The notes below the pieces were generated by a model. That model was not told where the DNA came from. It worked only from the letters and a program-made list of their open reading frames with translations, and made no database searches. A program made the position numbers and the translations under genes. From a virus, in the IMG/VR virus record IMGVR_UViG_3300042691_047309, positions 1-64,000 of that record: a stretch of 64,000 nucleotides of DNA; one strand, written 5' to 3'. This document shows positions 32,068 to 63,293 of this stretch, one piece after another; position 1 is the first letter of the stretch, and each line of letters begins with the position of its first letter.

Positions 32068-32805
32068 TTATATGAAATGATTTGTTACTTGTTTATCCAG
32101 ATTATGTTCATTGAATATATTAATAAGACTTTTATATTCTTCATCTGAACAATTTACTAAATATAAGTTTGAGTGTATAAAAGTTATCACATCACCGTTA
32201 TTTTCATCTACATAATCTTCTTTCCAGAAGCCATAAAGTGGTCTAAAATCAGTTGATTCATAAACCATTTTCAGTCTTTCTATTACCTCATCTAAATGTT
32301 CGGGTAGAAATATATCAAATGTCATATAAATAAAAGGATAAGCTTTTACTACTCCTCTTTCAATATTTTCTACAAGTAATTCCTCAAAAGTTTTACCAGT
32401 AACTCCAGACTTTTCAAGGTTAGTCCTTTTTTCTTCTACATCATCTAAATGTAACCACTCAACATTTCTTCTAAGAATTCCTTTATTTAGGTTTTTGACT
32501 GGATCCATAAAAAAATCAGACCATTTATCTCCAAATAAATCATAAGGTTTTTCTTCATACCAATTTCTTTCTTTCCACGACATCTCGTGATAAAGGTCAG
32601 ATTGAATAGTTCTATCCCATTTTTGTGGAAAGAAAAGATATCCACCGTCAATAAATTTACTCAAAGCTTCAGCACTATTATTATAGTTAAATTTAGTTAT
32701 CCCATCATCTTCTAACTCTATGAAGAAATCATGTAACTCTGTATATGTTGGAAAGTGTATTTTACCAACAGACTCAAATAATTTATATGATTTTATATAC
32801 TTCAT
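32068..32805 (-). CDS. Leader-bearing protein of unknown function
   Basis: 245 residues beginning MKYIKSYKLFESV, a full form of the shared leader. The mature part is rich in W, Y and acidic residues (DLYHEMSWKERNWYEEKPYD) with a C-terminal FIHSNLYLVNCSDEEYKS. I recognise no family. Its start overlaps the stop region of the upstream leader gene by one base. Capsid packaging is inferred. Confidence 0.7.
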   Translation of the reverse strand: MKYIKSYKLFESVGKIHFPTYTELHDFFIELEDDGITKFNYNNSAEALSKFIDGGYLFFPQKWDRTIQSDLYHEMSWKERNWYEEKPYDLFGDKWSDFFMDPVKNLNKGILRRNVEWLHLDDVEEKRTNLEKSGVTGKTFEELLVENIERGVVKAYPFIYMTFDIFLPEHLDEVIERLKMVYESTDFRPLYGFWKEDYVDENNGDVITFIHSNLYLVNCSDEEYKSLINIFNEHNLDKQVTNHFI

Positions 32806-33641
32806 TACATTTTCAATAATATTTTTAAAGTATAATCATATATCGGTCTTGAAGTGTCAAAATATCTTTCATCCCTTGAAAAGGGCCAAAGAACTTCTTC
32901 ATAGTCTAATTCTGCTGTAATCAAGTCAATTCTATCATCTAATTCTTTTTCTAAGTCTAATAAACTCATTTGACCTGTTCTGTGAGAATCTACCGATGAC
33001 CAACCACCAATGTCAATTACCACACCTGGTTGATACATACTAAGAACATTTTCAGGAGAATATAATTTTAATTTTCTCATCTCATATTCTTTAAGTTCAG
33101 TAAATTCTGAGAAGTCAAAATTCTGACATTGCCACTTTTTATCTGTAACAAATTCAGATTCTGGTGCTGTTCTAAAATTGACTTCAGTATCTATCAATCT
33201 TGAACAAGATACCGTTGGTCTTACAATTTCAAAAATTATATTATGTAAAATATAACTTTTTCTTTTCATATCATCTGATTCAAAAATAGGCATAGTTCCA
33301 TTATACTTAAGCTCGTTAATATCATTTACTCTATCATAATCTCCATAAAGAACGGCACAATAAATATTCTTTTCTTTTTCATCAGGTAGAGTGTCATAGA
33401 TTTCAAGCATCGCATCTTTTATATGATTCAAATCAACTTCTGAAAGTATTTGAAACATTCTATCAACATGAGACTTTATTTTCTGCCACCAACCATCTCC
33501 TACAAAATGGTCAGTCCATCTTTCTAATTGTGATATATCATTATTTGACCAGTGATTATTTCTAAGATAATCATAGAAATCAAAAATAGAATATTCTTTT
33601 TGAGACTCTAAAAAAGATTTATATGTTTCTAATTTTTTCAT
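32805..33641 (-). CDS. Leader-bearing protein of unknown function
   Basis: 278 residues, leader MKKLETYKSFLESQ. The following region (YDYLRNNHWSNNDISQLERW) is helical. RPTVSCSRLIDTEVNFRTAPESEF near 145-170 and VVIDIGGWSSVDSH near 217-230 are the best conserved-looking parts, but no family is recognised. Overlaps the upstream fusion gene by 4 nt. Confidence 0.7.
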   Translation of the reverse strand: MKKLETYKSFLESQKEYSIFDFYDYLRNNHWSNNDISQLERWTDHFVGDGWWQKIKSHVDRMFQILSEVDLNHIKDAMLEIYDTLPDEKEKNIYCAVLYGDYDRVNDINELKYNGTMPIFESDDMKRKSYILHNIIFEIVRPTVSCSRLIDTEVNFRTAPESEFVTDKKWQCQNFDFSEFTELKEYEMRKLKLYSPENVLSMYQPGVVIDIGGWSSVDSHRTGQMSLLDLEKELDDRIDLITAELDYEEVLWPFSRDERYFDTSRPIYDYTLKILLKM

Positions 33642-35344
33642 CTTAAAGTTTTTATTCTTTCTACTTGATATTTCATTATATCAACATCTTGATTTTGTTT
33701 AAGTAAATCAATTATCTTTTGATACATTTGTATTGTTATCCTACAGTCTGTAATGGCGTCGTGATAACCCATCATATTAACTCCTAAGACCGGTCCTATT
33801 TTAGCCATTGATGATGATATAAGTCCGTTATCTCTTGTAGATGTTCCTATAAAATCAATCATTTCTTTATATTTAGTATCTGTTTCAGCTAATGTTTGTA
33901 ATAGAGGTAAGAAATATAACTGAATCAACATTTTAGTATCAAATACTTCGCTTTCAATTTTGTGACCGTATCTTCCACTTAGCATTGCCATATCAAAACT
34001 CGCATTTTGAGCAACTAATATATTTGGTGAGTAATTACTAACCCATCTGAAAAAGTCATCTACTATATCTTTTTCATTTTTATATTTATAATCACCTGAT
34101 CCATAGTGATTAAACCCCAATACCCACTTAGTTTTATCCTCAGGTTGTAGAAACTTTGATTTAGTTTCATCTGTTAATTTTATCTTTTCATCAAATGTTC
34201 CTATTTCACTAAAATTGTTTGATTTGAAATCATACTGAGTTGCTATTGCAGATACTTGAGTTAATTGTTGTTGTTTTGGACCACCTAACCCAGTCGTTTC
34301 GGTGTCGCACCAGATAAACGGCAGTGTGGATTTAGATTCTAACCACTCTAATATTTCTGGTATAGTTTTATACCACATTTTATTTTCATTCAATCCTTCC
34401 TCTACCTTATCAAAATGTATATAAACTTGCTCAGATATCGTTCCTTCATTAAGTGTTTTAATTTTTGTTGAAAATCCTTCAGATTCTAAATAACTTATAG
34501 TTGCCTCAACAACAGGACTTATTTCATTCCAAAACTCATCGTGAGTTAGTCTTCTTTGATTTTTAATCCAAACATAAGGACCATGTAACCAATAGTGTTT
34601 TTTATCTTTCGGTCTTATTAAGTCAATAAATGAATTAAGTTTGGAAGGTGACTCTGTGAATCCACTGATATGTGGTCTGTATCCTAAATCTTCTAATTCT
34701 AAAAGAATATTTCTTAAATAAGATTCCAATTCCAATCTAATTGGACTAGTTGGTAGTTTCCACTCAGAGTCATATTCTATACCTTCATGTTTAATTGATT
34801 CATTTGTTTTATAGTCAAATTTAACTTTTTCACCCGATGGCATTGAGTAAGTAATCTTATCAACATTTTTTACTTCATATTTATAACCAGGATTGACATA
34901 CTTTTTACCTGTTCCCTTTTTAACATAAGCAATTGTTATGTGTGGTTTGTAATCAGGATACTGATCTGAATTAGGAAACTTAGAAAGCTCATCGTGTAAG
35001 TATTGTAAAGCACCATCCGGTTTTACATTAAACTTAACAACATCAAACTTCTCATTCTCAAAGATATCTATACCATCTACTACTATGTTTATATTGTCTG
35101 TAAAGTTATCAAATACAGATTTTACCATATCTGGAGTTACCGTATCATGAAGACCATAGAGTAAAGTAAGGTGTGGGTTATTTTGAATTCCGTATGTTGA
35201 ATCTCCTTCTTCTTCATAAATATCTTCCTCATCAATAGATGATGTTATCTCATTCCAGTTACTAACTGGGATTTCGACCATAACACATCCATATTGATAG
35301 CCTGATGACTCCTTAATAAATTGTATGTAGTTTTTGATTTTCAT
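33638..35344 (-). CDS. 2H phosphoesterase - DEDDh exonuclease fusion with leader
   Basis: 568 residues. The leader MKIKNYIQFIKESS is followed by a 2H phosphoesterase domain with H-L-T (58-60) and H-I-T (135-137). Then K-T-N-E-S (179-183), a middle domain of about 110 residues resembling the small leader proteins, and a DnaQ-like exonuclease: DTETTGL (347-353), NASFD (447-451) and HDAITD (528-533). All DEDDh catalytic residues are present. 2H enzymes cut 2'-5' or cyclic nucleotides; Acb1 of T4 is one. An anti-defence function delivered with the DNA is inference. Confidence 0.85.
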   Translation of the reverse strand: MKIKNYIQFIKESSGYQYGCVMVEIPVSNWNEITSSIDEEDIYEEEGDSTYGIQNNPHLTLLYGLHDTVTPDMVKSVFDNFTDNINIVVDGIDIFENEKFDVVKFNVKPDGALQYLHDELSKFPNSDQYPDYKPHITIAYVKKGTGKKYVNPGYKYEVKNVDKITYSMPSGEKVKFDYKTNESIKHEGIEYDSEWKLPTSPIRLELESYLRNILLELEDLGYRPHISGFTESPSKLNSFIDLIRPKDKKHYWLHGPYVWIKNQRRLTHDEFWNEISPVVEATISYLESEGFSTKIKTLNEGTISEQVYIHFDKVEEGLNENKMWYKTIPEILEWLESKSTLPFIWCDTETTGLGGPKQQQLTQVSAIATQYDFKSNNFSEIGTFDEKIKLTDETKSKFLQPEDKTKWVLGFNHYGSGDYKYKNEKDIVDDFFRWVSNYSPNILVAQNASFDMAMLSGRYGHKIESEVFDTKMLIQLYFLPLLQTLAETDTKYKEMIDFIGTSTRDNGLISSSMAKIGPVLGVNMMGYHDAITDCRITIQMYQKIIDLLKQNQDVDIMKYQVERIKTLR

Positions 35345-35766
35345 TAAAATGCTCTTCGTCGTTCTTTTTTATTTTTAAATATTTCGATAAATATATAATC
35401 TCTATATTCTGAAAATTGCAATTTATAATCAGGATATTTATCTGATAATCTTTTTAGACTAACTTTGACTTCTTGTAATAACTCGTTGTTAGTGTTATGA
35501 TTTTCAATATGGTTATAAATAGAAGAATTTTGGTCACCAATAAGATTTGCTGTCTTAGCAGTTTTGTGGTCTATATCAACTATCGTTTTTAATGTAATAG
35601 TTATATATGGTTCTGTTTGATCACCCATCAACATGGAGACTGAATCTCTTTCTATTAATTTTATTTCAGCTCTCTCATCATCTAATAATTCGGCAAAACA
35701 TTGATAAACATAATCATAATCTATGTAATCATTTTCACTTTCATTAAATCTTCTTAGCCTTTTCAT
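35344..35766 (-). CDS. Leader-bearing protein, tandem paralogue
   Basis: 140 residues beginning MKRLRRFNESEN. The next part (DYDYVYQCFAELLDD) is nearly identical to that of the neighbour at 35803, showing tandem duplication; the C-terminal half (LLQEVKVSLKRLSDKYPDYK) is also shared. No enzymatic motif. The paralogues differ most in the middle, near 50-85. Confidence 0.7.
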   Translation of the reverse strand: MKRLRRFNESENDYIDYDYVYQCFAELLDDERAEIKLIERDSVSMLMGDQTEPYITITLKTIVDIDHKTAKTANLIGDQNSSIYNHIENHNTNNELLQEVKVSLKRLSDKYPDYKLQFSEYRDYIFIEIFKNKKERRRAF

Positions 35767-35802: not shown

Positions 35803-36195
35803 TTAAAATGGATATTGTTCTTTTTTCTCTTCACCACCAAATATGTTAATATGAATTGAATAACCAAATATGTCAAAATTAATTTTATAAGTTGGATATT
35901 CTTCTGATAATCTATTTAAAGCAACTTCAACTTCTTGTAACAATTCGCTATTTGATTTTACGCCGTTTATGTAGTCAAATAATTTAGACCTTTCAATAGT
36001 GACAGTTCCTCCGTTATCTCTTCTTTCTGGATTAGATTGATTAATTTTCAAATCTATGGTAATATACTTTTGATAATCATTTTCAAATTCTCTAATTTGT
36101 GCTTTATTATCATCTAACAATTCAGCGAAGCACTGATAAACATAATCATAATCTATATCAATTTTACTTTCATTAAATCTTCTTAGTCTTTTCAT
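35803..36195 (-). CDS. Leader-bearing protein, tandem paralogue
   Basis: 130 residues, leader MKRLRRFNESKI followed by DYDYVYQCFAELLDDNKAQ. Paralogue of the preceding gene, ten residues shorter. Its start overlaps the upstream stop by one base. Its small fold (helix, strands, helix, strands) resembles the recurrent domain of the 56-60 kb cluster. Confidence 0.7.
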   Translation of the reverse strand: MKRLRRFNESKIDIDYDYVYQCFAELLDDNKAQIREFENDYQKYITIDLKINQSNPERRDNGGTVTIERSKLFDYINGVKSNSELLQEVEVALNRLSEEYPTYKINFDIFGYSIHINIFGGEEKKEQYPF

Positions 36196-36662
36196 TATAT
36201 TTCTTCTATTTTATATTTCATAAATCTCATAAACTTGTTATGTAATTCATTTCTATCCTCTACATTAAATACAAGGTTATTAACTTTCATGTAACTAACC
36301 ATTCTTGGAAAATCATCTATTTTAGATATCTTATAACCTAAGTAGTCTAAACTATCTTCTAAGTGTTGATATTCTTCTGGATAAATCCTACTCAAATCTC
36401 CAGTTGTTTGTTTATAAACAAACATGTCAAATCCACTTTCATCTGGAACTAATTTTATTAAAAATAAAAAAGAACGTTCTTTTTCAGGTACACTATTTAA
36501 AAATTCATCTATGTCTAAATTAATAAAGAATATATCTTTACTATCATCATTTTTTATAACAGCTATCTTATAGTCGTCTATTTGATTCTCAAAACAAGAA
36601 AGAATGACTTCTTCTAATTCCTGTTTAGACTCAAATAATTTATATGATTTAAGAAACCTCAT
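36195..36662 (-). CDS. Leader-bearing hypothetical protein
   Basis: 155 residues, leader MRFLKSYKLFESK. The rest alternates strands and helices (IFFINLDIDEFLN, SFLFLIKLVPDESGFDMFVY). No family recognised. First gene of the minus-strand leader run 36662-32068, with a late-type box 4 nt upstream. Confidence 0.7.
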   Translation of the reverse strand: MRFLKSYKLFESKQELEEVILSCFENQIDDYKIAVIKNDDSKDIFFINLDIDEFLNSVPEKERSFLFLIKLVPDESGFDMFVYKQTTGDLSRIYPEEYQHLEDSLDYLGYKISKIDDFPRMVSYMKVNNLVFNVEDRNELHNKFMRFMKYKIEEI

Positions 36663-38473: not shown

Positions 38474-38749
38474 TTAATAGAAAGTATTTTTCAACTCAAA
38501 TTCAATGTCATCATCATCACTTTTTTCAAAATCAAAATCGAATCCCATATTTACAATATATGATGCGACACAATCAACCATCATTGGATCCGCTCCTCTT
38601 TCTTCCATGTATTTCATATAGTCTTGAATAGTGAAACTACCTTTCTCATTTTTTAGTTTTTGTAATTTAGGTAAAATGTCTTTAGCGATATCTTCATGAA
38701 TATCAGAGTCTAATTTTCCGTAAGATTCAAAAGTTTTTAAATGTCTCAT
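38474..38749 (-). CDS. Leader-bearing hypothetical protein
   Basis: 91 residues, leader MRHLKTFESYG. Helical middle (HEDIAKDILPKLQKLK), a short conserved-looking EERGADPMMVDCVAS segment near 49-63 and an acidic C-terminus. Function unknown. Lies between the ankyrin protein and the histidine kinase. Confidence 0.65.
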   Translation of the reverse strand: MRHLKTFESYGKLDSDIHEDIAKDILPKLQKLKNEKGSFTIQDYMKYMEERGADPMMVDCVASYIVNMGFDFDFEKSDDDDIEFELKNTFY

Positions 38750-38762: not shown

Positions 38763-40829
38763 TTACATTTCTTCTACCCAAGGTTTCTTACCTCTTCTTT
38801 CAAGTTTCTCACACATATCTTTCCACTCATTAGGCTCAAATTTAAGTGCATTTTCTTTTAAGAATTGTCCTACTTGTTTTTTTAAGTCACCATTTGGAAG
38901 TTTTCTTGTATGACCCATCCAAGCAAAAGCATCAACAAATCCAGATTTACAACCTTTTGACATTTGGTCATTTATAATATCCATTCTACCATATTCAGCA
39001 GCCCATTTAACTACAAAGTTTTTACCAGCTTCTTCTGATTTAACTCCATATTTTAATAACATTTGGTATCCAGCAAAATAAGATTCTCCAATCTCTGTAA
39101 GACTTTTCCAAGATCCTTTACAAACTTTTCTGATTGGAAGATTTGAATTAAAGTTAGCATCAGCTCCTGCTTTTAAACAGAATTCTAAAGCATCTTCATC
39201 ACAAACAATGTTATTAAATACATCACCTGTAAGAACCGCGTGATTAGAAACTAACAACTTAATCATTTCCATATCTTTAGCTTTAGCAATTGCTGAATCA
39301 GCTCCTTTTTGTAAGTTAGGTGTTCCACCCAACGCAAAAATCATTTTAACTCTTTCTATATCATTATCTTCAACAGCATTGATAAGAGCTTTTCCATTAT
39401 CTCTATTTATGTCAGCTCCAAATTCTTTAACATATCCTTGTAAATCAGCCGCTGTAATAGTCCTTTCTCTACCAGTTTCTGGGTCCGGAATAGTTTTCTT
39501 AATAATAAATCTTTCAGCGTCTTTTGCTCTCTTTCTTCTGTCAATTTCTTCTTGACTAAGAGGTTGTAAGATATCAAAAAGACTATCACCAATCTCGTAT
39601 TCATTCTCCCATTGTTTTAAGAGTGATTTAAACTCACCACCTATATAATTATTATTCACTGTTTGACAAGCACCATTATCCCAACTTCTATTCGGTTTCA
39701 TTGTAATTCCAATAGTCCATCTAGTATTTGTAGATGAAAGATTAAAATTATAAATGTAGTATTGAATATTATACTCACCTAAATAACTATTCCAGTGAGA
39801 CTCGGTATTCACAATACAGTGTGAGCAGTGAGAGTTTAGCATTTTGTTAGCCGCGTAAGAATTGACCTCTACTATCATAATACCAGATACATTGTAAATA
39901 ACTTTACATCCTTTAACACCAAGTAAGTCATTTACTTTATTAATCTTTTCAATTCTATCAGAGTATCCTTCTGTTCCAGAGGCGTCTAAGTGTTGTTTTG
40001 CAGCTCTGATAAACTCAACAAGTGGATTTTCCTCATTATTAAATCTAGCTAATCTACTTCTCCAAACTAATTTTCCAAAATTTGGATTTGGTTTTCCATC
40101 TCTTGTTGTCTCCCAATTATCAACAAGCATTTCGCCAAAGAAAGTTTTCCAAATAATTTCTTTTTTATCATCTGGAGTGATACTTTCAAAACCAACAGCT
40201 ATTTCTATTAGTTGTTCCATTTGAAGTTCAGTTGCTGAGTTAGCAGCTTTTTTCAATTTTGGAGGAAGAGTATCAATAATTTTTTTAACCTTTCTATAGT
40301 CTCCTAATTTATCTAATTCATCCGAAAGAATCTCAGCATTTGTATGATTGTTAGATGGATTTGGAATTGACTCATCTATAAAGTTAATATCAAATTTCTT
40401 TGGAAGTTTATCTAACAAGTCTTTATATTCTATAAGAAGACCATAAAGTCTTTCAACTTCTTCATAAGATATTCCTTCAATGAAATACATATAAACAAAA
40501 TTATAAAGATATCCGATGTTTGGTTGAAAAAGGTCTCTTAGCTTAACAAACTCTTCATTGCGTTCAAGATTTCTAACTTGTTCATCTGTTAATCTAACAT
40601 CTCTCATTTTCATTCTGATTTCGTTAAATTGTTCCGGTGTAAAGTCATTTTTAGAAAGACCTTTCTTTTCACCATTTCTTAATTGGTAATCTAACTCAGA
40701 ATCAACAAATTTTAAATCAGTAGCCAACTTTTTTATAACAAATTGGTCTTTCAAAAACTTTTTTGATTTATCAAGATTCTCATTAAGAGGATGTAAATTA
40801 GTAAATTGGTTATATCTAAATAACTTCAT
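38763..40829 (-). CDS. Ankyrin-repeat protein with leader-like N-terminus
   Basis: 688 residues from the ATG at 40829. An in-frame start at 40862 would add an 11-residue non-leader extension and would overlap the upstream gene. Starts MKLFRYNQFTNLHPLNEN, close to the RNA ligase leader. A helical half (about 30-300) is followed by a block with CSHCIVNTESHWNSYLGEY near 335-355, and from about 475 ankyrin-like repeats (ALINAVEDNDIERVKMIF, AGADANFN). Ankyrin repeats bind proteins; as a packaged protein it could target a host factor. Confidence 0.75.
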   Translation of the reverse strand: MKLFRYNQFTNLHPLNENLDKSKKFLKDQFVIKKLATDLKFVDSELDYQLRNGEKKGLSKNDFTPEQFNEIRMKMRDVRLTDEQVRNLERNEEFVKLRDLFQPNIGYLYNFVYMYFIEGISYEEVERLYGLLIEYKDLLDKLPKKFDINFIDESIPNPSNNHTNAEILSDELDKLGDYRKVKKIIDTLPPKLKKAANSATELQMEQLIEIAVGFESITPDDKKEIIWKTFFGEMLVDNWETTRDGKPNPNFGKLVWRSRLARFNNEENPLVEFIRAAKQHLDASGTEGYSDRIEKINKVNDLLGVKGCKVIYNVSGIMIVEVNSYAANKMLNSHCSHCIVNTESHWNSYLGEYNIQYYIYNFNLSSTNTRWTIGITMKPNRSWDNGACQTVNNNYIGGEFKSLLKQWENEYEIGDSLFDILQPLSQEEIDRRKRAKDAERFIIKKTIPDPETGRERTITAADLQGYVKEFGADINRDNGKALINAVEDNDIERVKMIFALGGTPNLQKGADSAIAKAKDMEMIKLLVSNHAVLTGDVFNNIVCDEDALEFCLKAGADANFNSNLPIRKVCKGSWKSLTEIGESYFAGYQMLLKYGVKSEEAGKNFVVKWAAEYGRMDIINDQMSKGCKSGFVDAFAWMGHTRKLPNGDLKKQVGQFLKENALKFEPNEWKDMCEKLERRGKKPWVEEM

Positions 40830-41811: not shown

Positions 41812-42242
41812 TGTTGTAATAATTCTTTTATATCATTCAAAAGTTCAGATACATCATCAAATGAACCAGAGAAAGCATATCCGTCTCCACCACAACTAAA
41901 TTCAAAAATAACTTTTGAGTTGTATTTATTTTTACCTTCAGTTCTTCTTTCATACATATCAAATTCATCTGGAATGCTTTCGTAAGTATTATCCATGTTC
42001 ATTCTTACAAAATCATCAGCAATACTTTCAGATTCTTGTTCTGATTTACCTGCTGATATAAGGCTATTGTAAACTAATGTGTTTATAATATTTTCTAATG
42101 TACTTTCAGAACCATAACTGTAACGGGCTTCAACCTTTTCGTTTAGATGGTCCTCAAATTGTTCAAGTGTTGTTTCATCAGTCACTACGAATTCTTCATC
42201 TTCGTTAGATTCAAATAACTTAAATGATTTAATATATTTCAT
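41808..42242 (-). CDS. Leader-bearing hypothetical protein
   Basis: 144 residues, leader MKYIKSFKLFESNE. Acidic throughout; the end (VIFEFSCGGDGYAFSGSFDDVSELL) suggests a small beta sandwich. Function unknown. Late-type box 17-18 nt upstream. Confidence 0.7.
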   Translation of the reverse strand: MKYIKSFKLFESNEDEEFVVTDETTLEQFEDHLNEKVEARYSYGSESTLENIINTLVYNSLISAGKSEQESESIADDFVRMNMDNTYESIPDEFDMYERRTEGKNKYNSKVIFEFSCGGDGYAFSGSFDDVSELLNDIKELLQQ

Positions 42243-47364: not shown

Positions 47365-47394
47365 AAACCTGTTCTTAATTGAACAGGTTTTTTA
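47365..47394. terminator. Bidirectional terminator
   Basis: AAACCTGTTC (47365-47374) and GAACAGGTTT (47381-47390) pair around TTAATT, flanked by A and T tracts, between convergent genes. It includes the last codons of the minus-strand small gene. Confidence 0.85.
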
Positions 47395-53940: not shown

Positions 53941-55260
53941 ATGAAGTTATTCAGATATATGGAATTTATAAAAGAAAGCGTTACTCAATACTCTATACCT
54001 TCTTATGAAGAGGCGGTTGAGATGTGCTCTAAACCAGATGCTGCTTTTTATGAATCAAAAACTGAAGTTGATGGTTTTCCAATAAGCATCTTCAATTATA
54101 GACTTGCTCAATTTAGTGATTTTAATCTACCATTGGAGAATAAACCAGAAGTTAAAGCTTTTGAAATGAGAGGTCTTACTTTTGTTTTTAATAAAGATGG
54201 TTCTCTTTATAAAAGATTTGTGCTACTTGAAAAGTTCTTTAACTTGAATCAAGTTCCTAATTCTATGTATTCTGTTGTTAAAGATTACAAAATTCGTTAT
54301 GTTAATAACAAAGAAGATGGTTCTATTGCTTCATTTATTCAATTACCAAATGGAAAGATTATAGGTCGTTCTAAAATGGGGTTTGATAATGACCAAGCAA
54401 ATGGTATAAACAAAATCTATAAAACAAATGCGGATATAAATCAATTTGTTAATTGGTGTTTATCACAAGACATAACTCCGATATTCGAGTATGTCGCGCC
54501 CCACAACCGTGTAGTTTTAAGATACTCACAAGAAGAGCTGATACTTTTAAGACTAAGAGATAACAAGACCGGAAAACATATCGATATCAAAGACCATTTA
54601 GATAAAATTGGTTCAATTAAGATTGCACCTTTTGAGGATGACCACACTTTGGATGACCTAATTGAAAAGTCAAAAACTGAAGCAGAGAGAGAAGGATGGA
54701 TTGTTCAGTTTGATAATGATCACATGCTTAAAATCAAAACTGATTGGTATTGCCAAAGACACGGACTTTTAACAAATGACATTTATAGAGAACATATTAT
54801 TATAGGATATATCTTAGATGATAAGATTGATGATATTTTAGGTCAAATTCCTGAGGATGAAAAAGAAGCACACGAAAGAATACAAAAGATAATTTCAATT
54901 GTTAAAAGAGAAATTAACAATTTAGTTTCACAGATGAATTCTGCTTACTCGGAATTTGTTAAGTCAGGTGCTGATAAAAGAGATTATGCTATTAATCATA
55001 GAGTTGGAAATCCTAACTTTCATTTTGTTATGAGTATGGATAAATATGATAAATTAAAATCTATGTCTAAAGAAGATATATTAGAGTATTATGATTCAGT
55101 TGAAGCTTGGGAAAAGGCAATTGAAAAATATCAACCTTATAACTTAGCTGTTGAGACAATAAGAGATAAAACTAAGAGATTGGAAATAGCCAGAGAATGG
55201 TTAGAATCAAAAGATCCTGGATTATTTTTTAGAGATCCAGAAGAGTCAGAGGAGAATTAA
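53941..55260 (+). CDS. T4 Rnl1-type RNA ligase with leader
   Basis: 439 residues from the ATG at 53941; an upstream in-frame start at 53833 would add 36 hydrophobic residues and place the promoter inside the gene. Leader MKLFRYMEFIKESV. The nucleotidyl-lysine motif is K124 in NKEDGS, motif III-like FEYVAP near 182-187, motif IV EGWIVQF (251-257), motif V LKIKTDWY (263-270). Seals 5'-P to 3'-OH RNA ends, in T4 to repair cleaved tRNA anticodon loops. The helical C-terminus may be the tRNA-specific domain. Confidence 0.9.
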   Translation: MKLFRYMEFIKESVTQYSIPSYEEAVEMCSKPDAAFYESKTEVDGFPISIFNYRLAQFSDFNLPLENKPEVKAFEMRGLTFVFNKDGSLYKRFVLLEKFFNLNQVPNSMYSVVKDYKIRYVNNKEDGSIASFIQLPNGKIIGRSKMGFDNDQANGINKIYKTNADINQFVNWCLSQDITPIFEYVAPHNRVVLRYSQEELILLRLRDNKTGKHIDIKDHLDKIGSIKIAPFEDDHTLDDLIEKSKTEAEREGWIVQFDNDHMLKIKTDWYCQRHGLLTNDIYREHIIIGYILDDKIDDILGQIPEDEKEAHERIQKIISIVKREINNLVSQMNSAYSEFVKSGADKRDYAINHRVGNPNFHFVMSMDKYDKLKSMSKEDILEYYDSVEAWEKAIEKYQPYNLAVETIRDKTKRLEIAREWLESKDPGLFFRDPEESEEN

Positions 55261-55298: not shown

Positions 55299-56111
55299 AT
55301 GAAAATAAAGAAATACATAGAATTCATATCTGAAGAGATTTTTAACCTGACATCATGGCCTTCTTTATTTGATGATGAGAAAAACGGATATGTTCTTCCT
55401 ATGTTATTGTGGTCTGTTGATATTTCTGATGGTTCTTTTAGAGAAGGTGATTATGAAACACCTGTAGCATCTTCGGGTGTCAAATTAGTTAAGAGTTGGA
55501 ATTTAGAAAATAATTTAGTTGGTTCTTACTTTGAATTTATCGGACAAAAAAGAGGAGTAATATTTACACATATTAAAGAAGTTAATTTGGAATTTTGCGA
55601 CTCTAAAGAAAAAGGTTATACGCTTCCGAAAAATTTAAGTGAAAGAGTAAATAATTTATATAACCAGTATGGTTTAGGAACACCTATTTTTGCAACAGTT
55701 GTTAAAGGGTTTGAAGATGGTGTAAAGGTTGTGACCACTGGTTCTAACTGGCACTTAGTTTCTAAATTAGGTATTAAAAAACTAGGAACAACTACATATA
55801 GAGGATTTGTTAGAGAAACAAAAATTCCACTTTATAGTGATGATACTCAAACGCCGGAATCAAAAGAAGCTATTTGGAAAAAACTTTTACAGGATGAAAG
55901 TTGTGAAATAACTATTTGGTCTCAAAATATGAAGAAAGAATTTCCAATTCAAATGGTTGATGGAAATCCTTACTACAATGGAAATATACCTGTTTATTTT
56001 GGAGATAAAGAAATAAACCAACAAGTTTTAGATTTAGCTGGTGAAGACGAAGAGAAGTATAAAAAGATGAAATCTCTAACAAAAAACTTAAAATTGAAAT
56101 CAGTCAAATGA
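55299..56111 (+). CDS. Leader-bearing protein of unknown function
   Basis: 270 residues beginning MKIKKYIEFISEEI, whose ISE-E resembles a prohead-protease site. The N-terminal part (SLFDDEKNGYVLPMLLWSVD) and a C-terminal QMVDGNPYYNGNIPVYFGDKE hold the most ordered stretches. No family recognised. Overlaps the next gene by 4 nt. Confidence 0.7.
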   Translation: MKIKKYIEFISEEIFNLTSWPSLFDDEKNGYVLPMLLWSVDISDGSFREGDYETPVASSGVKLVKSWNLENNLVGSYFEFIGQKRGVIFTHIKEVNLEFCDSKEKGYTLPKNLSERVNNLYNQYGLGTPIFATVVKGFEDGVKVVTTGSNWHLVSKLGIKKLGTTTYRGFVRETKIPLYSDDTQTPESKEAIWKKLLQDESCEITIWSQNMKKEFPIQMVDGNPYYNGNIPVYFGDKEINQQVLDLAGEDEEKYKKMKSLTKNLKLKSVK

Positions 56112-56935
56112 AATATCTAAAAACATATACTCTCTTCGAGAGAGTCTCTAATGAGACTAAATTATTTGAAGCATTAGTAGAAGATATTACTTTTATTAGA
56201 ATGTCTCATACCGATATGTTAAATGGTAGAGAAGCAGGTTGGTATCAACCAAAACAAAGAAGAATGATAGGTCCTGATACTTTTAATGACTCTTTGGTAA
56301 AAGCTGGATTCCCTGATAAACAAAGTTGTGTTCATTTTATGTCGGAGTCATCTTACGATGTTGGGTACTCTTATATTTATGGTAAAAATTTATTTCAAGT
56401 GGTAATAGATGATAAATCTAAATTAGGATGGTCATTTGTTGCTCCAATAAATGATTGGTTTTATAAAGGAAATTCTATTCAAAACTCACTTAGAAGTGGA
56501 AATGAATTGGTGTCTGATATTATGAAAAGTACATTTAATAAGATATATGCTGATTCTCAAACTGGTGAGGGTGTTGATGAGTCATTAAATTATTTGTTAG
56601 ATTTTAAAGCTATAGGAACAGGAACAATTGAAGATTTAAAAAGGTCACCACACTTTGGGAAATATAATTTATATGTTTGGACAACTGATAAAGTATATCT
56701 TAAAAGATATGTTAAAGAAAGTGAGATAAAGGAAAAAGAACCAAAACCTTATAAAAATCAACCAGTTTTAGATACTGAAGATTTTACTGAAAGAGGAATT
56801 AAACCAGAGGAAATTGGTAATTTTTATCAATCTGAGTGGGGAAGAAGATTTAAAAGACTTCAACCTACTGCAGATTACAATTTAAGAAGAGAAGAAGCTC
56901 TAAAACTTTTAGATGAATGGATAAAAACAAGATGA
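56108..56935 (+). CDS. Leader-bearing protein of unknown function
   Basis: 275 residues, leader MKYLKTYTLFERVSNETKLF, 22 residues of which (through KLFE) are nearly identical to those of the pterin dehydratase gene at 61176 before the sequences diverge completely. HMSDLNG-like RMSHTDMLNGREAGWYQPKQR near 32-52 and YKNQPVLDTEDFTERGIKPEE near the end are ordered. No family recognised. Confidence 0.7.
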   Translation: MKYLKTYTLFERVSNETKLFEALVEDITFIRMSHTDMLNGREAGWYQPKQRRMIGPDTFNDSLVKAGFPDKQSCVHFMSESSYDVGYSYIYGKNLFQVVIDDKSKLGWSFVAPINDWFYKGNSIQNSLRSGNELVSDIMKSTFNKIYADSQTGEGVDESLNYLLDFKAIGTGTIEDLKRSPHFGKYNLYVWTTDKVYLKRYVKESEIKEKEPKPYKNQPVLDTEDFTERGIKPEEIGNFYQSEWGRRFKRLQPTADYNLRREEALKLLDEWIKTR

Positions 56936-57702
56936 GATACTTAAAAACATACAAATTATTTGAATCCAACTGGTATGATATGAAAGACCATATCAAAGTC
57001 CTTTCAGATATGTCACTTTCACTATGGGATAGAGATTTTAATGTTCAGGTCGCTGATGAGATTATAAGTAGAGAACACCAATGTGTAGTTGTCAATATAG
57101 TTAAAAAAGGTTCTACTAAATTTACTTTTCCAGTAATTAAAGAAGAGTTATTAGAAATGGTGGATTATATGGATAGTGAAGGTTGGGAAGTTTTAAATAT
57201 TGAATTGAGTGATTTATCTTCTGGTTACTTTTATTGTTATTTAGAAGGAGATAAATTACTTGCTCTTCATACAGATAGAGAAATCACGGAAGAATTTGAC
57301 CAACTCATAGTTAAGTTTGTTGAAAAACGAGAAGTTAAAACAAACGAATCTACTGAAGAAGATGTTCATAGAGAGATGATGATTAAAAAGTATGGTTTAG
57401 AAGAAATAGAGGAGTGTGATGAGGTTATTAGAAATATTAGTGATATGGGTTTAGAAGTCGAAGACTTAGGTATAACTGTATTAGTTGGTTATAGTCCTAT
57501 GACTTATATGTCTGCTGAATCAACTCCTAAAATTTCAGTTAGTGTTATTGCTGATGCAATACTTTTTGCGGGAAATATTGCTGATATAGATATTTTCACA
57601 GATACATTATTGAGTTATGTAAAATCATTAGGTTTTTCAACAGGTAAAAACACTTTTACAACAGACCGAAAAATGACAAGGCAAATTCTAATACAAAAAT
57701 GA
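56932..57702 (+). CDS. Leader-bearing two-domain protein
   Basis: 256 residues from the ATG at 56932 (ATGA overlap; a start at 56917 would add MDKNK). Leader MRYLKTYKLFESN. The first domain carries LSDMSLSLWDRDFNV, then K-T-N-E-S (136-140) starts a second domain that is almost a copy of the start of the next gene (STEEDVHREMMIKKYG). So two former leader genes appear to be fused here. Confidence 0.7.
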   Translation: MRYLKTYKLFESNWYDMKDHIKVLSDMSLSLWDRDFNVQVADEIISREHQCVVVNIVKKGSTKFTFPVIKEELLEMVDYMDSEGWEVLNIELSDLSSGYFYCYLEGDKLLALHTDREITEEFDQLIVKFVEKREVKTNESTEEDVHREMMIKKYGLEEIEECDEVIRNISDMGLEVEDLGITVLVGYSPMTYMSAESTPKISVSVIADAILFAGNIADIDIFTDTLLSYVKSLGFSTGKNTFTTDRKMTRQILIQK

Positions 57703-58124
57703 GAAAGTTAAAAACATATCAAAATTTTAATGAATCTACTGAAGAAGATGTTCATAGAGAAATGATGATTAAAAAGTATGGATCAGAAGAAATAGAAGAG
57801 TGCGACTCAGTTATAAGTGATGTAAAAGATATGTTATTAGAATTAAATGATTTAGAAATTTTTACAATTATAGATTATACATCAATGACATATATGTGTT
57901 TTGAAAAGACATCACCTAAGTTATTTCTAAATATTAAGTGTGGTAGTAAATTATGGGATTCTAATGAGAGTTTAATTGATGGTGTGATTTCCACAATAAA
58001 AGAATTTGTTAGAAGTTATGGATATAGTATCGGAACCAATGTTAAAAAAGAAGAAAAACGGCAAGTTACTATTCCAATTACTGACATATTTGAGGTTGAA
58101 TATCAAATGTTAATACAAAAATGA
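57699..58124 (+). CDS. Leader-bearing protein, paralogue of the preceding C-terminal domain
   Basis: 141 residues, leader MRKLKTYQNFNEST then EEDVHREMMIKKYGSEEIEE, nearly identical to residues 140-160 of the preceding protein. Tandem duplication is clear. Recurrent L-E-L-x-D core (MLLELNDLEIF). Function unknown. Confidence 0.7.
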   Translation: MRKLKTYQNFNESTEEDVHREMMIKKYGSEEIEECDSVISDVKDMLLELNDLEIFTIIDYTSMTYMCFEKTSPKLFLNIKCGSKLWDSNESLIDGVISTIKEFVRSYGYSIGTNVKKEEKRQVTIPITDIFEVEYQMLIQK

Positions 58125-59407
58125 AAAAGTTAAAAACATATAAGAGATTTTTAGAATCTAATTCTGAAGACATTAGTGAAGTTATGAGTGTCTTAAATGA
58201 CATGTCATTGGAATTAAGAGACAAAGGCTTTTTTGTTGAACAACAATCTTTATCATATGGAAAAATGGGAGTAATAAAGGGGTTTAGAATTGTCGTTGTA
58301 AAATCAAATGATGGTGGTGGTTTTATGTGGCATAATACAAAAAAATTTTACTTTCAGGACATTAAAGAAAATATATTAGAAATGACAGAATATTTAGAAT
58401 CTGAAGGATTTTCTATAGATACAATTGATTTTATTGATGATTCTGGTGTTGTTGATGGTATTTTAAAAGATGGTAATTTATATAACAATTTTTCAAAAGA
58501 AGAGGTAAATCACCTGACAGATGGCTTTATAATTAGGTTCATTAAATCAGATAAAACTAATGAATCTTCTGACAAACCAAGACAGACGGAATCTGATAAT
58601 CTTAATTTAACGAATAAATTTAATTTTGTTATTGGTAAAGAATATTCATTTGATGAATTACCACAAAATATAAAAGATGATATTTATATACAATTTGACG
58701 AATACTCTGATTTACAACCCGAAGACTATTACTATGTTGCTAAATTATTAAAACCAGAAGAAACAGAAGAATATTTACATAATCAATTTGGTGAATATAA
58801 CATTCAAGACGCACTTGAAGAACCGTATATGAAAAAAATTATTAGAGATATCCAAATAAATGGTTTAGATTATCCAGCTGTTGGAATAGAAGGAAATCAT
58901 AGAGCATTGGCTTTTTTGTATTTGAAAAAAGACTTACCATATTTAGAAATGATTGAGATTGCTAAATTGGATAAAACTAACGAATCATCTTCGGAAAGAT
59001 GGTCAAACACACAACAACAACTTAGAGAAGATAGTAATTTTATTTCTGACACTTGTTTAGAATTAGATGATAAAGGATTTAAAACTTGTGGAGCTCGAAC
59101 TCAAACAAATAAAATTAATGTCGTTCAATTTGGTCAGAGTCCAGTGTTGAAAATTAATGAAACTACACCTTATTTTATTATTGGACATCCTGTAGGTAGA
59201 TACTTCAAATTCTCGGAGATAAAAGATGAGCTTCTACAAATCAAATCTTATTTGGGTGATAGATGGATAAAATGTGGCGTTCTGTATGAGTTTTCACATG
59301 AGAGAATAGAGGTCTTTATAGATGAAAAAGATTATGACCATTTAGATGATTGGTTTCAAACTTCAGCTGCAGGAATTATAAATCTGGTTGTGTTCTTTAA
59401 TATATAG
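58121..59407 (+). CDS. Three-domain leader protein with a ParB-like middle
   Basis: 428 residues, leader MKKLKTYKRFLESNS. Domain 1 (about 20-140) has the L-E-L-x-D-x-G-F core (LELRDKGFFV). K-T-N-E-S (145-149) is followed by a middle domain whose GIEGNHRALAFL (255-266) matches the E-G-N-H-R-A-x-A motif of ParB/Srx-like phage proteins. K-T-N-E-S (285-289) then starts a third domain resembling the next gene (SDTCLELDDKGF). TNES thus marks both joins. Confidence 0.72.
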   Translation: MKKLKTYKRFLESNSEDISEVMSVLNDMSLELRDKGFFVEQQSLSYGKMGVIKGFRIVVVKSNDGGGFMWHNTKKFYFQDIKENILEMTEYLESEGFSIDTIDFIDDSGVVDGILKDGNLYNNFSKEEVNHLTDGFIIRFIKSDKTNESSDKPRQTESDNLNLTNKFNFVIGKEYSFDELPQNIKDDIYIQFDEYSDLQPEDYYYVAKLLKPEETEEYLHNQFGEYNIQDALEEPYMKKIIRDIQINGLDYPAVGIEGNHRALAFLYLKKDLPYLEMIEIAKLDKTNESSSERWSNTQQQLREDSNFISDTCLELDDKGFKTCGARTQTNKINVVQFGQSPVLKINETTPYFIIGHPVGRYFKFSEIKDELLQIKSYLGDRWIKCGVLYEFSHERIEVFIDEKDYDHLDDWFQTSAAGIINLVVFFNI

Positions 59408-59410
59408 TTT

Positions 59411-59839
59411 ATGAAATTTTTAAAACCATATACTAAGTTCAACGAAGGTTTATCTGATTATCAAATCGAACAACTTGAAGAGGATAAAAATTTCATTTCA
59501 GATACACTTTTAGAATTGAAAGATAAAGAATTCCGTATAAATGTAGAGCATAATGTGAATTCTATAATAGGTAAGGTATTTATTGATTCTTTATCAATAA
59601 CTGAACCTATGCCTATATTAATAATAGGTGCTCCTGAAAATTCTCAATTTCAATTTTCAGATGTAAAAGACGAACTTCTACAAATTAAATCTTATTTGGA
59701 TGATAGATGGTATAAGTGTGGTGTTATGTTTAACTCGGAAATAATTGATGTTTTAATAGATGAAAAAGATTATGACAATCTAGATGATAAAACTTCAGCG
59801 GGTGGAATATTTTATTTGGCTGTATTTTTTAATATATAG
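59411..59839 (+). CDS. Leader-bearing protein, paralogue of domain 3 of the preceding protein
   Basis: 142 residues, leader MKFLKPYTKFNEGL. It repeats the domain FISDTLLELKDKEF, DVKDELLQIKSYL and DVLIDEKDYDNLDD found at the C-terminus of the preceding protein, both ending FFNI. Function unknown. Confidence 0.7.
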   Translation: MKFLKPYTKFNEGLSDYQIEQLEEDKNFISDTLLELKDKEFRINVEHNVNSIIGKVFIDSLSITEPMPILIIGAPENSQFQFSDVKDELLQIKSYLDDRWYKCGVMFNSEIIDVLIDEKDYDNLDDKTSAGGIFYLAVFFNI

Positions 59840-59842
59840 TTA

Positions 59843-60316
59843 ATGAGACATTTAAAATCATACAAATTATTTGAATCAGTATCTGAGCAAACAGTAAGAG
59901 ACATATTATTAGAGATAACTGATGATAGTAATTTCAATGTTGAAATCAAAGAAGTAGATAATCATTTAGAAGTTTATATAACGAGAGGATCTTTTTTAGA
60001 TGGAAGAAAAACGAGAGAAATACCAGGAGCTCCTACTCCTCCAGGTAGTGGATATCCAGCTAATTTATTTTTATGGTTTGAAATAAAAGACACTATTATA
60101 AGATTATGTGAGTATGTTTATTCAGAAACTGATTTAGAACCGATTGAGAATAAACCATTTCAACAATGGTATTTACAACAGGGACATTTTGCAAAATCAC
60201 CATTTAGAATGAAAAATGGTGGAACCGAGTTTGGTATAGGATGGCACAAAGCAGAAGATTTTACTTTAGGTGATTTTATTTCTTTTACTGGTCTAAAATT
60301 AATAATTAAGTTGTGA
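59843..60316 (+). CDS. Leader-bearing hypothetical protein
   Basis: 157 residues, leader MRHLKSYKLFESVS. VRDILLEITDDSNFNVEI near 18-35 is a version of the recurrent domain start, followed by GAPTPPGSGYPANLFLWFEI near 58-77. Ends at GTGA overlap with the next gene. Confidence 0.7.
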   Translation: MRHLKSYKLFESVSEQTVRDILLEITDDSNFNVEIKEVDNHLEVYITRGSFLDGRKTREIPGAPTPPGSGYPANLFLWFEIKDTIIRLCEYVYSETDLEPIENKPFQQWYLQQGHFAKSPFRMKNGGTEFGIGWHKAEDFTLGDFISFTGLKLIIKL

Positions 60317-61179
60317 AATACTTAAGAAGAATAAATGAAAGTTTGAATTCTAAAACTCTAACTAAACAAGAAGTTATTGAGTTATTGGAAAGAAACTGCC
60401 AAAAGTTTTTAAGTTATCCTAATAAAAATCAATCCAATCTCATATTCAGAAAAGATGAGGACCGTGGAGATTTTGCCTTAGTTAATCCTAAGTTATCAAC
60501 TTCTAAAAGAATTGCTCCTTATGCTCCAACAAATGTTCATAATTTACTTATTTCCAATTTAGATTCTTGGAAAGGTTGGCCTCGTAGAAATAAATCTTTG
60601 ATTTTTGCTTCTGATAAAGCGGCACTCTATCATAGCTCTGAGAATGAAGATTTGATTGTTGATTATGTTGTAATTCCATTTGATAGTACAAAAATAGCAA
60701 CCGGAGATAGAAGTGATTTTTGGGATTGTTTTGGAAAAATTCCAAACAGAAAGCAATTTCACAAAGATTTTTCACCAGACAACTATCCGAGACCTAGTAT
60801 TGCTTGGTATATCCGGAATTTAATGTTCGATTTAGAAATTAAAGAAGAATACCCAGAGACTGATTGGCAAAAAATAAAAACATTATTAGAAGAGGCCGAA
60901 CTTGTTGACCAAACACTTATTAAAAAATACTTTGAGATCGAAGGAGAAATTGTTTGGAATCCTAATATGAATCTTTTGGAAAACCTGAATCATATTTTAG
61001 ATCCAATTTATAACGATTTTAAATTAGGTGATGTTACTTCAACTATGGACTTATACTCACAATTAAATCCTAATGATTCTGACTATCTTAAAACTGCTTT
61101 AGAATCTTGGTCTGAAGATGAGGTCATACTTATAAAGTATAATATGTTAAATGAAATTTTAAATGAATTAGAATCATGA
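60313..61179 (+). CDS. Leader-bearing protein; paralogue of 62242
   Basis: 288 residues with a GTG start overlapping the upstream stop. Leader MKYLRRINESLN. NLISNLDSWKGWPRRNKSLIF near 72-92 and IPFDSTKIATGDRSDFWDCFG near 114-134 align with matching blocks of the gene at 62242. The order of a basic N-terminal block, an S-[LI]-I strand, and a D-x-W-x-x-F-G loop is a known but uncharacterised phage family, possibly ADP-ribosyltransferase-like. Overlaps the pterin dehydratase by 4 nt. Confidence 0.65.
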   Translation: MKYLRRINESLNSKTLTKQEVIELLERNCQKFLSYPNKNQSNLIFRKDEDRGDFALVNPKLSTSKRIAPYAPTNVHNLLISNLDSWKGWPRRNKSLIFASDKAALYHSSENEDLIVDYVVIPFDSTKIATGDRSDFWDCFGKIPNRKQFHKDFSPDNYPRPSIAWYIRNLMFDLEIKEEYPETDWQKIKTLLEEAELVDQTLIKKYFEIEGEIVWNPNMNLLENLNHILDPIYNDFKLGDVTSTMDLYSQLNPNDSDYLKTALESWSEDEVILIKYNMLNEILNELES

Positions 61180-61478
61180 AAAGAATAAAGACATATACTC
61201 TATTTGAGAGAGTCTCTAATGAGACTAAATTATTTGAGTCTGCTCAAAACTGGATAGAGATTGATGGAAAACTTTGTAGAGATTTCGAGTTTTCTGACTT
61301 CAATCAGGCTTTACAATTCATAAATAAAATCTCACAAATTTGTGAATCAGAAAATCACCACCCAGAAATAAATTGGGTTTATAATGAGATAACTCTAAAA
61401 TTATCAACTCATGATGCTGGTGATATTATTACTGAGAAAGATATAAAATTAGCTGAATTGATAGATGAAGTGGCTTAA
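61176..61478 (+). CDS. phhB: Pterin-4a-carbinolamine dehydratase with leader
   Basis: 100 residues. Leader MKRIKTYTLFERVSNETKLF is followed by a full PCD: W26 (NWIEIDGKLCRDFEF), DFNQALQFINKIS near 41-53, catalytic H61-H62-P63-E64 and T78-H79-D80-A81-G82 with a final EKDIKLAELID. The family recycles 4a-hydroxytetrahydropterin; in eukaryotes a homologue also acts as a transcription cofactor. No phenylalanine hydroxylase is seen. A leader on this enzyme suggests delivery to the host or capsid rather than phage metabolism. Confidence 0.92.
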   Translation: MKRIKTYTLFERVSNETKLFESAQNWIEIDGKLCRDFEFSDFNQALQFINKISQICESENHHPEINWVYNEITLKLSTHDAGDIITEKDIKLAELIDEVA

Positions 61479-62238
61479 GACATATGAGACATTTAGACCA
61501 TTAAATTATCCAATTGGTGTTTTTGATTCTGGATATGGAGGACTTACAATACTAAATCGCTTAAAAAATGACTACCCGGATTGGAATATAATTTATTTAG
61601 GAGATAATCTAACTGCACCATATGGAAATATGAGTGATTCAGAGGTTGTTTTAAACACAAAAAAGTGTTTAGATTTTCTTAACAGTAAAGGTTGTAAAAA
61701 AATAATTTTAGCCTGTAACACAGCTTCTTCAAAATCAGAATTAATTAATAATGATACTATAGATATAATTTCACCTACCAAAGAATTTATTAAAAATTCA
61801 TCATCCAATATTGGTTTAGTTGCTACTAAAAGTACTGTTAATTCTGAAGTTTATAATAGTTCTAATGTCACTCAACTTGCTTGTCCTGACTGGGTTAGAA
61901 TAGTTGAAGAAGCAAACTTTTCAAATGAGTCTGTAAATATAATTAAATCTGATTTAGAAAAATTATTTGAATTGAATTCAGAAATTGAAACTATAATTTT
62001 AGCTTGCACTCATTTTAATGTTTTAAAAAATATAATTAATAGAATAATACCAAGTATTGAAATTATTAGCCAAGATTCTCTTCTGAGTAACTATTTAAAA
62101 ACTATAAAGATGAGTCCAAGTTATGGTGGTCAAGTGGAATATTATACAACTGGTGATAGTCATGAATTCTCAACCGAAACTATGAATATATTCGGAGAAT
62201 CAATTTTAGCAAAATCAATTAGTTTAACAAATATATAA
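61465..62238 (+). CDS. murI: Glutamate racemase with leader
   Basis: 257 residues, the normal length. Leader-like MKWLKTYETFRPLN, then GVFDSGYGGLTIL near 18-30 and the two catalytic cysteines C84 (ACNTAS) and C181 (ACTHF), with IYLGDNLTAPYG near 43-54. Interconverts L- and D-glutamate for peptidoglycan. As a phage protein it could feed or disturb cell-wall synthesis. Overlaps the pterin dehydratase by 14 nt. Confidence 0.9.
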   Translation: MKWLKTYETFRPLNYPIGVFDSGYGGLTILNRLKNDYPDWNIIYLGDNLTAPYGNMSDSEVVLNTKKCLDFLNSKGCKKIILACNTASSKSELINNDTIDIISPTKEFIKNSSSNIGLVATKSTVNSEVYNSSNVTQLACPDWVRIVEEANFSNESVNIIKSDLEKLFELNSEIETIILACTHFNVLKNIINRIIPSIEIISQDSLLSNYLKTIKMSPSYGGQVEYYTTGDSHEFSTETMNIFGESILAKSISLTNI

Positions 62239-62241
62239 GTT

Positions 62242-63012
62242 ATGAGATATTTGAAGAAATATAAAGTATTTGAAAATTATAATAAATTTGGAACTAAAAC
62301 TCTAACTGAAGTAGAGTTTGACCAAATCAGAAAAGAAAATTGTAAAAACTGGACTAAAGTTGAAACTGAACTTTATAGAGGTATGCCTGATTTAGGAGAC
62401 TATTTGATTGTGGATCCCCTAAAAGGTGACTTCAGAAGTTCAATTGAAAATACTAACATTCACTTAGACTTACTTTCAAATTTACCAAGTTGGAAAGATT
62501 ATCCTAAATATGAAAGATGTGTAATAGGAGGAACTCGTGGATCAGCGACTGGTACTTATGGAGAAACTGTCTATGAAATGATACCATTTGACGGTGTTAA
62601 AATAGCAGTTTGTCCAGAATCAACCATCTGGGAATCATTCGGGAATGATGATGATGAATTTGGTGGTGATATTAATTTAGTTGATGGATTCTTATATATA
62701 TATCCTATAGTTTCAGCTCCAGGTGAAACACTAGAAGAGAGATTAAAATCTTTAGGAAAAATTGTCGAAATACCTCATATAGATGGATATCCAGGTGTTA
62801 ATGAATTTCTAATGAGACATGCCGAATTTAGTTGGAAAAAACCAAATGAAATTACTGGTGAAGATTGTTTTAATTTTATTAACAACAGTCTTTTTAATCC
62901 AAAAGTTAGAGGTTTTCAATTATTAAACTATGACCAAAATTTCAAAACTCAAACTGGAAAACAAATTTGGACTGAAGGACCAGTTTTACTTATCAAATCA
63001 CATTTAGTTTAG
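62242..63012 (+). CDS. Leader-bearing protein; possible ADP-ribosyltransferase-like
   Basis: 256 residues, leader MRYLKKYKVFENYN. ETELYRGMPDLGDYLIVDP near 41-59 gives a Y-R-G at the end of the first strand, as in ADP-ribosyltransferases; SSIENTNIHLDLLSNLPSWK and the SATGTYGETVYEMIPFDGVK block follow, aligned with the protein at 60313. The catalytic glutamate of such enzymes is not obvious. T4 Alt, a packaged enzyme, is an ADP-ribosyltransferase, hence the interest; assignment is weak. Confidence 0.6.
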   Translation: MRYLKKYKVFENYNKFGTKTLTEVEFDQIRKENCKNWTKVETELYRGMPDLGDYLIVDPLKGDFRSSIENTNIHLDLLSNLPSWKDYPKYERCVIGGTRGSATGTYGETVYEMIPFDGVKIAVCPESTIWESFGNDDDEFGGDINLVDGFLYIYPIVSAPGETLEERLKSLGKIVEIPHIDGYPGVNEFLMRHAEFSWKKPNEITGEDCFNFINNSLFNPKVRGFQLLNYDQNFKTQTGKQIWTEGPVLLIKSHLV

Positions 63013-63293
63013 AAACTTCTAAAGTCTTTTACACCTCCAATATTCATTAACTTAGGTGCCATATTTTTAATTCCAGATTGTGGTGAAATAGAAGTTATAT
63101 TTTTAAAATCAATTTTATCATACATTAAATCAGGATTTTCTGTAAAATAGTTTGTTAAAAAATCCATATTTTCTTCTTCAGATTTATCTTTATCCCATAA
63201 ATGAAGTAATCTAGTTTTATTCTTTTCAATAAAATCTACAACATCTTTATTTAAAATAGGATTCCAATTTTCAAATTTTTTTAAAAATTTCAT
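63009..63293 (-). CDS. Leader-bearing hypothetical protein, minus strand
   Basis: 94 residues, leader MKFLKKFENWNP. Helical, acidic (DKSEEENMDFLTNYFTENPD). It runs towards the preceding plus-strand gene (4-nt overlap of stops). A late-type box lies 3 nt upstream of its start. Function unknown. Confidence 0.65.
   Translation of the reverse strand: MKFLKKFENWNPILNKDVVDFIEKNKTRLLHLWDKDKSEEENMDFLTNYFTENPDLMYDKIDFKNITSISPQSGIKNMAPKLMNIGGVKDFRSF

Follow-up and report, generated by a model that had tools for sequence, protein, structure and literature searches.

A short N-terminal leader opens dozens of proteins encoded by a fragment of a huge phage, and it probably acts as a capsid-targeting propeptide of the T4 type, deployed on a very large scale. 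This scale, together with the apparent use of the leader-coding DNA as an exchange joint, is what is new; packaging into the head had already been proposed in the original prediction, and the indirect tests described here support that reading without proving it. The DNA analysed, called the window hereafter, covers the opening 64 kb of an IMG/VR record of 175,894 bp. Regarding its origin, the gp32-like SSB of the record has 83–84% identity to its counterparts in LR745206 (635 kb) and LR756502 (642 kb, the nearest complete relative), and its baseplate protein 53–54%; both genomes belong to the Mahaphage clade, whose predicted hosts are Bacteroidetes (PMC7162821). By sequence relationship the record comes from a huge phage of Mahaphage type, of which it is a fragment; the closest relatives are Bacteroidetes huge phages of 634–735 kb, and the SSB and baseplate identities imply that it is probably about a quarter of a genome of ~640 kb.

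A reading of all ORFs in the window gave 23 clear leader genes between 32068 and 63293, with a possible 24th at 48935 on the minus strand, matching the 24 on both strands originally counted; the extra one placed at 2177 is also present (MNYLKKFNEE, 2177–2686, plus strand, TATATA 10 nt upstream). The minus-strand genes, whose leaders start at the higher coordinate, open with MKYIKSYKLFESV (32068–32805) and with MKKLETYKSFLES (32805–33641), the LR756502 orthologue of the latter beginning with MNMKIKTYSLFLES. Adjacent to these is MKIKNYIQFIKES (33638–35344), with a T4-like YxxFIxE|S, on a protein that joins a 2H phosphoesterase (weak match to the anti-CBASS protein Acb1) to an RNase T exonuclease; there follow two near-duplicates with MKRLRRFNES (35344–35766 and 35803–36195) and a gene with MRFLKSYKLFESK (36195–36662). 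The other genes on this strand carry MRHLKTFESYGK (38474–38749), which has no hydrophobic-x-E site, MKLFRYNQFTN (38763–40829, 688 aa), MKHIRLFENV (40834–41811, 325 aa), MKYIKSFKLFESN (41808–42242) and MKFLKKFENWN (63009–63293), again without such a site.

On the plus strand, MKLFRYMEFIKES (53941–55260) precedes a T4-type RNA ligase 1 whose domain starts at residue 75, and is followed by MKIKKYIEFISEE (55365–56111) and MKYLKTYTLFERVSNETKLFE (56108–56935). Genes with MRYLKTYKLFESN (56932–57702), MRKLKTYQNFNES (57699–58124), MKKLKTYKRFLES (58121–59407), MKFLKPYTKFNEG (59411–59839) and MRHLKSYKLFESV (59843–60316) have bodies of one family, named DILLEL and treated below. The strand is completed by MKYLRRINES (60313–61179), MKRIKTYTLFERVSNETKLFE (61176–61478; pterin-4a-carbinolamine dehydratase, domain from residue 18), MKWLKTYETF (61465–62238; an Asp/Glu racemase between two leader junctions) and MRYLKKYKVFENY (62242–63012), whose LR756502 orthologue is leader-bearing too.

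The leader is not limited to 32–63 kb; it recurs throughout the 176-kb record, for example at 66–75, 117–121 and 165–174 kb. A first PSSM, built from 19 seeds and run over the whole record with a cut-off of at least 8 bits, retained 22 ORFs; 500 shuffles gave 0.03 on average and never more than 1, and none of the 723 internal methionines passed. With a refined matrix and a score of at least 7, 33 of the 233 genes of the record were selected, as were 143 of 943 in LR756502 (15% of its genes) and 3 of 3432 internal methionines. Chance likeness is excluded, because the PSSM counts lie far above those of shuffles and internal methionines. A looser generic rule, derived from T4 and capsid-protein sites independently of these leaders, gave N-terminal enrichment in the record itself, LR756502, LR745206, LR756501, LR756504, LR756500 and Sphingomonas phage PAU, and no enrichment in Lak phages or MaF61. 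At the DNA level, a strict 32-base leader pattern was met at 35 places in nine related records (reversed-pattern control, 0), and a slightly stricter one in 94 IMG/VR stretches versus a single match in 257 Gb of bacterial and archaeal genomes. The contig with that match is of phage-derived appearance. A search of the open-access literature turned up no account of such a leader in these phages; the basic, aromatic N-terminal extensions of phage S21 proteins (PMC7162821) were considered as the same leader and rejected, the S21 ORFs of the relatives being 64–72 aa long with little room before the domain.

As for the level at which the leader is conserved, L or I occupies position 4 in 172 of 176 leaders and Y or F position 7 in 164, figures that are due in part to the construction of the matrix. 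The conserved residues use synonymous codons near the genome background, and L/I, Y/F and K/R interchange freely: conservation is at the amino-acid level. Orthologues in LR756502 keep the peptide at 36–66% body identity, while PAU and LR756501 retain the same plan with a different sequence. All this argues against an element that acts as DNA or mRNA, be it as enhancer of translation starts, extension of the promoter or site of recombination, and whose peptide has no function. Such an element would account for synteny breaks that fall in leaders and for leader-coding DNA that is more alike between genes of LR756502 than expected (41 pairs versus a mean of 4.2 by codon redrawing, with start-proximal codon bias unmodelled), but we judge it very improbable, and in its purely DNA-level form it is ruled out by codon use.

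The bodies behind the leader had been described as unrelated, which seems true of most of them; about a quarter to a third form one diverged paralogous family with the motif DILLELxDDGFxVxV, to which 8 of 35 leader proteins of the record and 43 of 145 in LR756502 belong (about 30%). A model of the member at 57699–58124 (pLDDT 65) matched nothing in the PDB at E ≤ 0.001, and thus gave no function by structure. The existence of this domain is what one would expect if the whole set were a single expanded paralogous family, with the shared start due to ordinary homology and to chance N-terminal likeness elsewhere. The remaining ~100 proteins have no common body, though: in 67 of them aligned together the mean column identity is 6% and the leader is the sole consensus. 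With chance excluded as above, and with bodies as different as ligase, lysozyme, SET, HNH and acetyltransferase, common descent of the entire set is extremely improbable. CCA/polyA polymerase and Toprim are also recognisable among the bodies, and Pfam confirmed the predicted RNA ligase, 2H plus RNase T protein, pterin dehydratase and glutamate (Asp/Glu) racemase; the ankyrin protein listed with them had to be dropped, as no ankyrin match occurred among the proteins scanned. Some cargo (an endolysin, a primase-like match) is not obvious as an injected effector.

Comparison of orthologues shows the leader as what appears to be an added module, present in some and absent from others. The racemase, pterin dehydratase and RNA-ligase domains all start downstream of it, and similarity of the racemase to most other racemases begins at residues 14–17. 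Among 25 relatives of the RNA ligase in IMG/VR, in a table read by eye, 18 have the leader, 6 are leaderless and one is ambiguous; all 6 leaderless proteins begin with the domain itself, at its conserved [IL]P[TS]Y, and TATATA precedes 12 of the 18 leader-bearing genes versus none of the 6. Leader genes turn over rapidly, since only about 14 of the 35 in the record have a reciprocal-best partner in LR756502; most of these orthologues keep the leader.

The resemblance to the T4 internal-protein start MKTYQEFIAEA, noted in the original prediction, holds on the actual T4 sequences: ipII and ipIII begin with it, and ipI begins with MKTFKEF. The first ten residues of the T4 capsid-targeting sequence (CTS) suffice, positions 4 and 7 governing targeting and 8 and 10 processing, and the internal proteins (IPs) co-purify with the scaffold (PMC9026906). 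In common with the CTS of IPI, IPII, IPIII and Alt (Mullaney and Black; PMC9026906), the leaders have an N-terminal MK..Y/F..F peptide of 10–19 residues, hydrophobic residues at 4 and 7, a predicted S77-protease cut after x-x-E, and unrelated cargo bodies. They differ in number, with a handful of T4 proteins against ~143 in LR756502; in their ending, often [YF]NE|S and outside the strict [LI]xE; and in their position at synteny breakpoints, packaging being a prediction here. By analogy the leader would work like the T4 CTS, of which it is a candidate member.

Other phages offer looser parallels. The N-terminal residues of P1 DarB suffice for entry of a reporter into the capsid, and the cargo is again of the counter-defence kind, but the Dar proteins are without a consensus, whereas here one consensus stands on dozens of proteins (PMC9024508). 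SPN3US, phiKZ and 201phi2-1, also giant phages, have numerous internal or ejected proteins that the prohead protease processes with a preference for S at P1' (PMC10052503, PMC5694885); they have 9–19 cleaved proteins and, in SPN3US, propeptides mostly of more than 100 residues, whereas the leader considered here has 9–14 residues and is found on many more proteins.

PAU, with a related head module, has 13 genes that begin MK[TS][LI]xxL[YF]E, including the scaffold gp152 and both "internal capsid proteins" gp142 and gp154 (depositor annotation, basis not given), the last three with MKTLxxLYE[SA]; many of the 13 cluster around the protease, portal and MCP genes. It differs from the present group in having only ~13 leader genes, another leader sequence, and scaffold and protease as separate genes.

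As for the protease, a gp21-type enzyme was expected; none was found in the 176-kb record, and every close complete relative has one. Its absence from the fragment is uninformative because the head genes lie outside it. Matches to S77, the gp21 family, were obtained in LR756502, LR745206, LR756501, LR756504, LR756500, Lak and PAU; in the four largest these are protease-scaffold fusions of ~700–800 residues that retain the catalytic motifs EFDHP and SSRAAG and contain about ten tandem 14-residue repeats.

The cleavage site of this group can be approached through the PAU MCP, whose cut was located experimentally: N-terminal sequencing indicated a change from 585 to 520 residues (PMC5646251, Table 1). 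Counted on the sequence, the cut is ALMEN|YQ, one residue beyond LME, and a T4-type LME|N would leave 521. In the alignment, the relatives have INE|N, INE|N, IHE|N, MNE|N, LYE|N, IYE|S and LNE|D at that column, so that the alignment shows a predicted MCP cut motif of hydrophobic-x-E|N/S across the group (MCPs from relatives only), the same as the leader endings. A hydrophobic-x-E ending is found in 88% of the leaders of the record and 81% of those of LR756502, versus 29% of other N-termini, and about 12–19% of leaders lack it altogether. The strict [LI]-x-E rule originally proposed fits only 39–47% of leaders (16–18% of other proteins), and the broader form 81–88%. Of the 101 IMG/VR leaders that match the strict DNA pattern, 67 have S and 18 have N directly after E.

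Upstream of the genes, two elements are enriched: TATATA, often 10–14 nt ahead of the start codon, and the host-like TAnnTTTG, corresponding to the published promoter element of Bacteroidota. When the count is restricted to genes with 40 nt or more upstream, 47 of 49 leader genes have TATATA, versus 205 of 359 others (p = 8e-9), and 1 of 49 versus 72 of 359 have the TAnnTTTG type (p = 6e-4); chance rates in 80 nt are about 20% and 4%, respectively. TATATA is also found before the MCP, portal, protease and terminase genes, so that leader genes may be expressed with head genes. It stands before two replication genes, a topoisomerase and a helicase, as well, and for this reason the TATATA class is not purely late and is no proof of late expression; genes with TAnnTTTG include peptidases, an ATPase and a PRPP synthetase.

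These data bear on the possibility that the leader, as an amphipathic lysine-rich helix, remains uncut and targets its proteins elsewhere in the cell, to the membrane, the replication compartment or a phage-encoded adaptor. Its K-rich amphipathic sequence would suit such a role, as would the 12–19% of leaders without hydrophobic-x-E. Unexpected under it are the fixed E followed by S or N, the match to the MCP cleavage site, the leader on the PAU scaffold and internal capsid proteins, and the promoter class in common with the head genes; we therefore regard targeting elsewhere as unlikely.

The putative capsid-targeting propeptide seems to have a second use at the DNA level, its coding sequence serving as a recombination joint at which bodies are swapped; the junctions are visible in the alignments, and the mechanism is our inference. 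Identity to the DNA of a close relative (L281/G010) is 94% over a stretch that includes the pterin dehydratase and the opening 30 bases of the racemase gene (61465–61494, plus strand); homology ends there, near the leader–body border, and restarts 12 bases into the leader of the next gene (62242–62254, plus strand). At this locus L281 has a single chimeric leader and no racemase, which may reflect an insertion or a deletion. The gene at 56108 and the L281 pterin-dehydratase gene share a 52-bp stretch at their starts with 96% identity, and the bodies differ.

A breakpoint test on five relatives, in which ends of homology blocks were scored within 45 bp of leader starts, placed 21 of 262 synteny breaks at leaders versus 2.7 expected (8-fold; maximum 10 in 500 shifts). 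Leader genes have 0.50 breaks per gene, compared with 0.19 at the starts of other genes and 0.17 when only neighbouring ones are counted. Breakpoints concentrate at gene starts generally, but just upstream of the start in ordinary genes and inside the leader in leader genes.

Taken together, the leader may be both a packaging tag and a recombination handle that plugs new cargo into a standing delivery system of promoter, tag and protease site, with more than 100 proteins (~15% of genes) pre-loaded in the head; on present evidence this full reading could equally well stand or fall. To judge from the promoters, leader proteins would be made together with head proteins. By analogy with T4, the amphipathic peptide, rich in lysine and hydrophobic at positions 4, 7 and often 10, would dock the cargo in the prohead scaffold core; the S77 prohead protease would then cut after hydrophobic-x-E, usually before S or N, and the freed cargo would stay inside the head and pass into the next host together with the DNA. 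Cargo bodies would be swapped at the leader-coding DNA, so that new genes could gain the tag and its promoter. The cargo would consist mostly of fast-changing accessory proteins, and some of the enzymes would suit immediate host take-over or counter-defence.

On this account, the leader allows a sizeable part of the unannotated genes of the largest phages known to be read from sequence as possibly head-carried and delivered at time zero, and the virion cargo of an uncultured phage to be predicted from the first 12 residues alone. The leader set yields candidates for counter-defence and take-over proteins, and the body swaps suggest that the cargo list is renewed behind a constant tag. What huge phages carry besides DNA is directly testable in PAU, the cultured relative.

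Finally, the tandem repeats of the protease-scaffold fusions deserve a comment. The idea that the leader copies the 14-mer YSEYIAENLDKNI of the fusion, a scaffold mimicry comparable to T4 YQEFIAEA, appealed on visual inspection but was weak in an unbiased scan and was kept as an idea only; of the top 50 internal 8-mers, scaffold repeats such as YSEYIAEN made up 5 in LR756501, 2 in LR756504 and 0 in LR756502. A repeat peptide of similar kind in LR756501 was discarded, as it sits in a different, collagen-like protein. In the window, a 55-aa ORF (47375–47542, minus strand), which might speculatively be tied to the leader system, contains the repeat of 14 residues seen in the protease-scaffold protein of the relatives.

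In the complete relative LR756502, the prohead protease is fused to a scaffold-like domain (225272-227371; 5272-7371 in the stretch L035), and the same arrangement occurs in LR745206, LR756501 and LR756504 (stretches L191-L270 of related records); it is a natural protease-scaffold fusion, widespread among these huge phages. The scaffold-like domain comprises about ten 14-residue repeats with an exact period (YSEYIAENLDKNI).

Within the window, the scaffold repeat of the relatives recurs in a 55-aa ORF (47375-47542, minus strand; E = 6e-7 to the LR745206 repeats) that overlaps the end of a dnaJ-like gene; the ORF is a possible stand-alone scaffold microprotein. Reading by eye placed DnaJ-like, GrpE-like and DnaK-like genes in one phage region (47539-48618, 49473-49940 and 63421-64000, respectively), the last running past the window to 65304 of the record.

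As for the leader-bearing fusion of 2H phosphoesterase and RNase T (33638-35344, minus strand), it is a candidate pre-loaded counter-defence enzyme; its match to the anti-CBASS protein Acb1 was sub-threshold. On the plus strand, genes resembling those for sugar-nucleotide enzymes, glycosyltransferases and methyltransferases, recognized by eye, form a long series (10339-26682) that may serve in surface or DNA modification.

Two promoter classes, TATATA and TAnnTTTG, extend across the whole LR756502 genome, the former often lying 10-14 nt upstream of the start; the distinction helps to sort genes of huge phages into expression classes.

Finally, two leader genes with phage-like neighbours lie on the "Rickettsiaceae MAG" contig JAIOYD010000005.1, which is probably a mis-binned phage contig.
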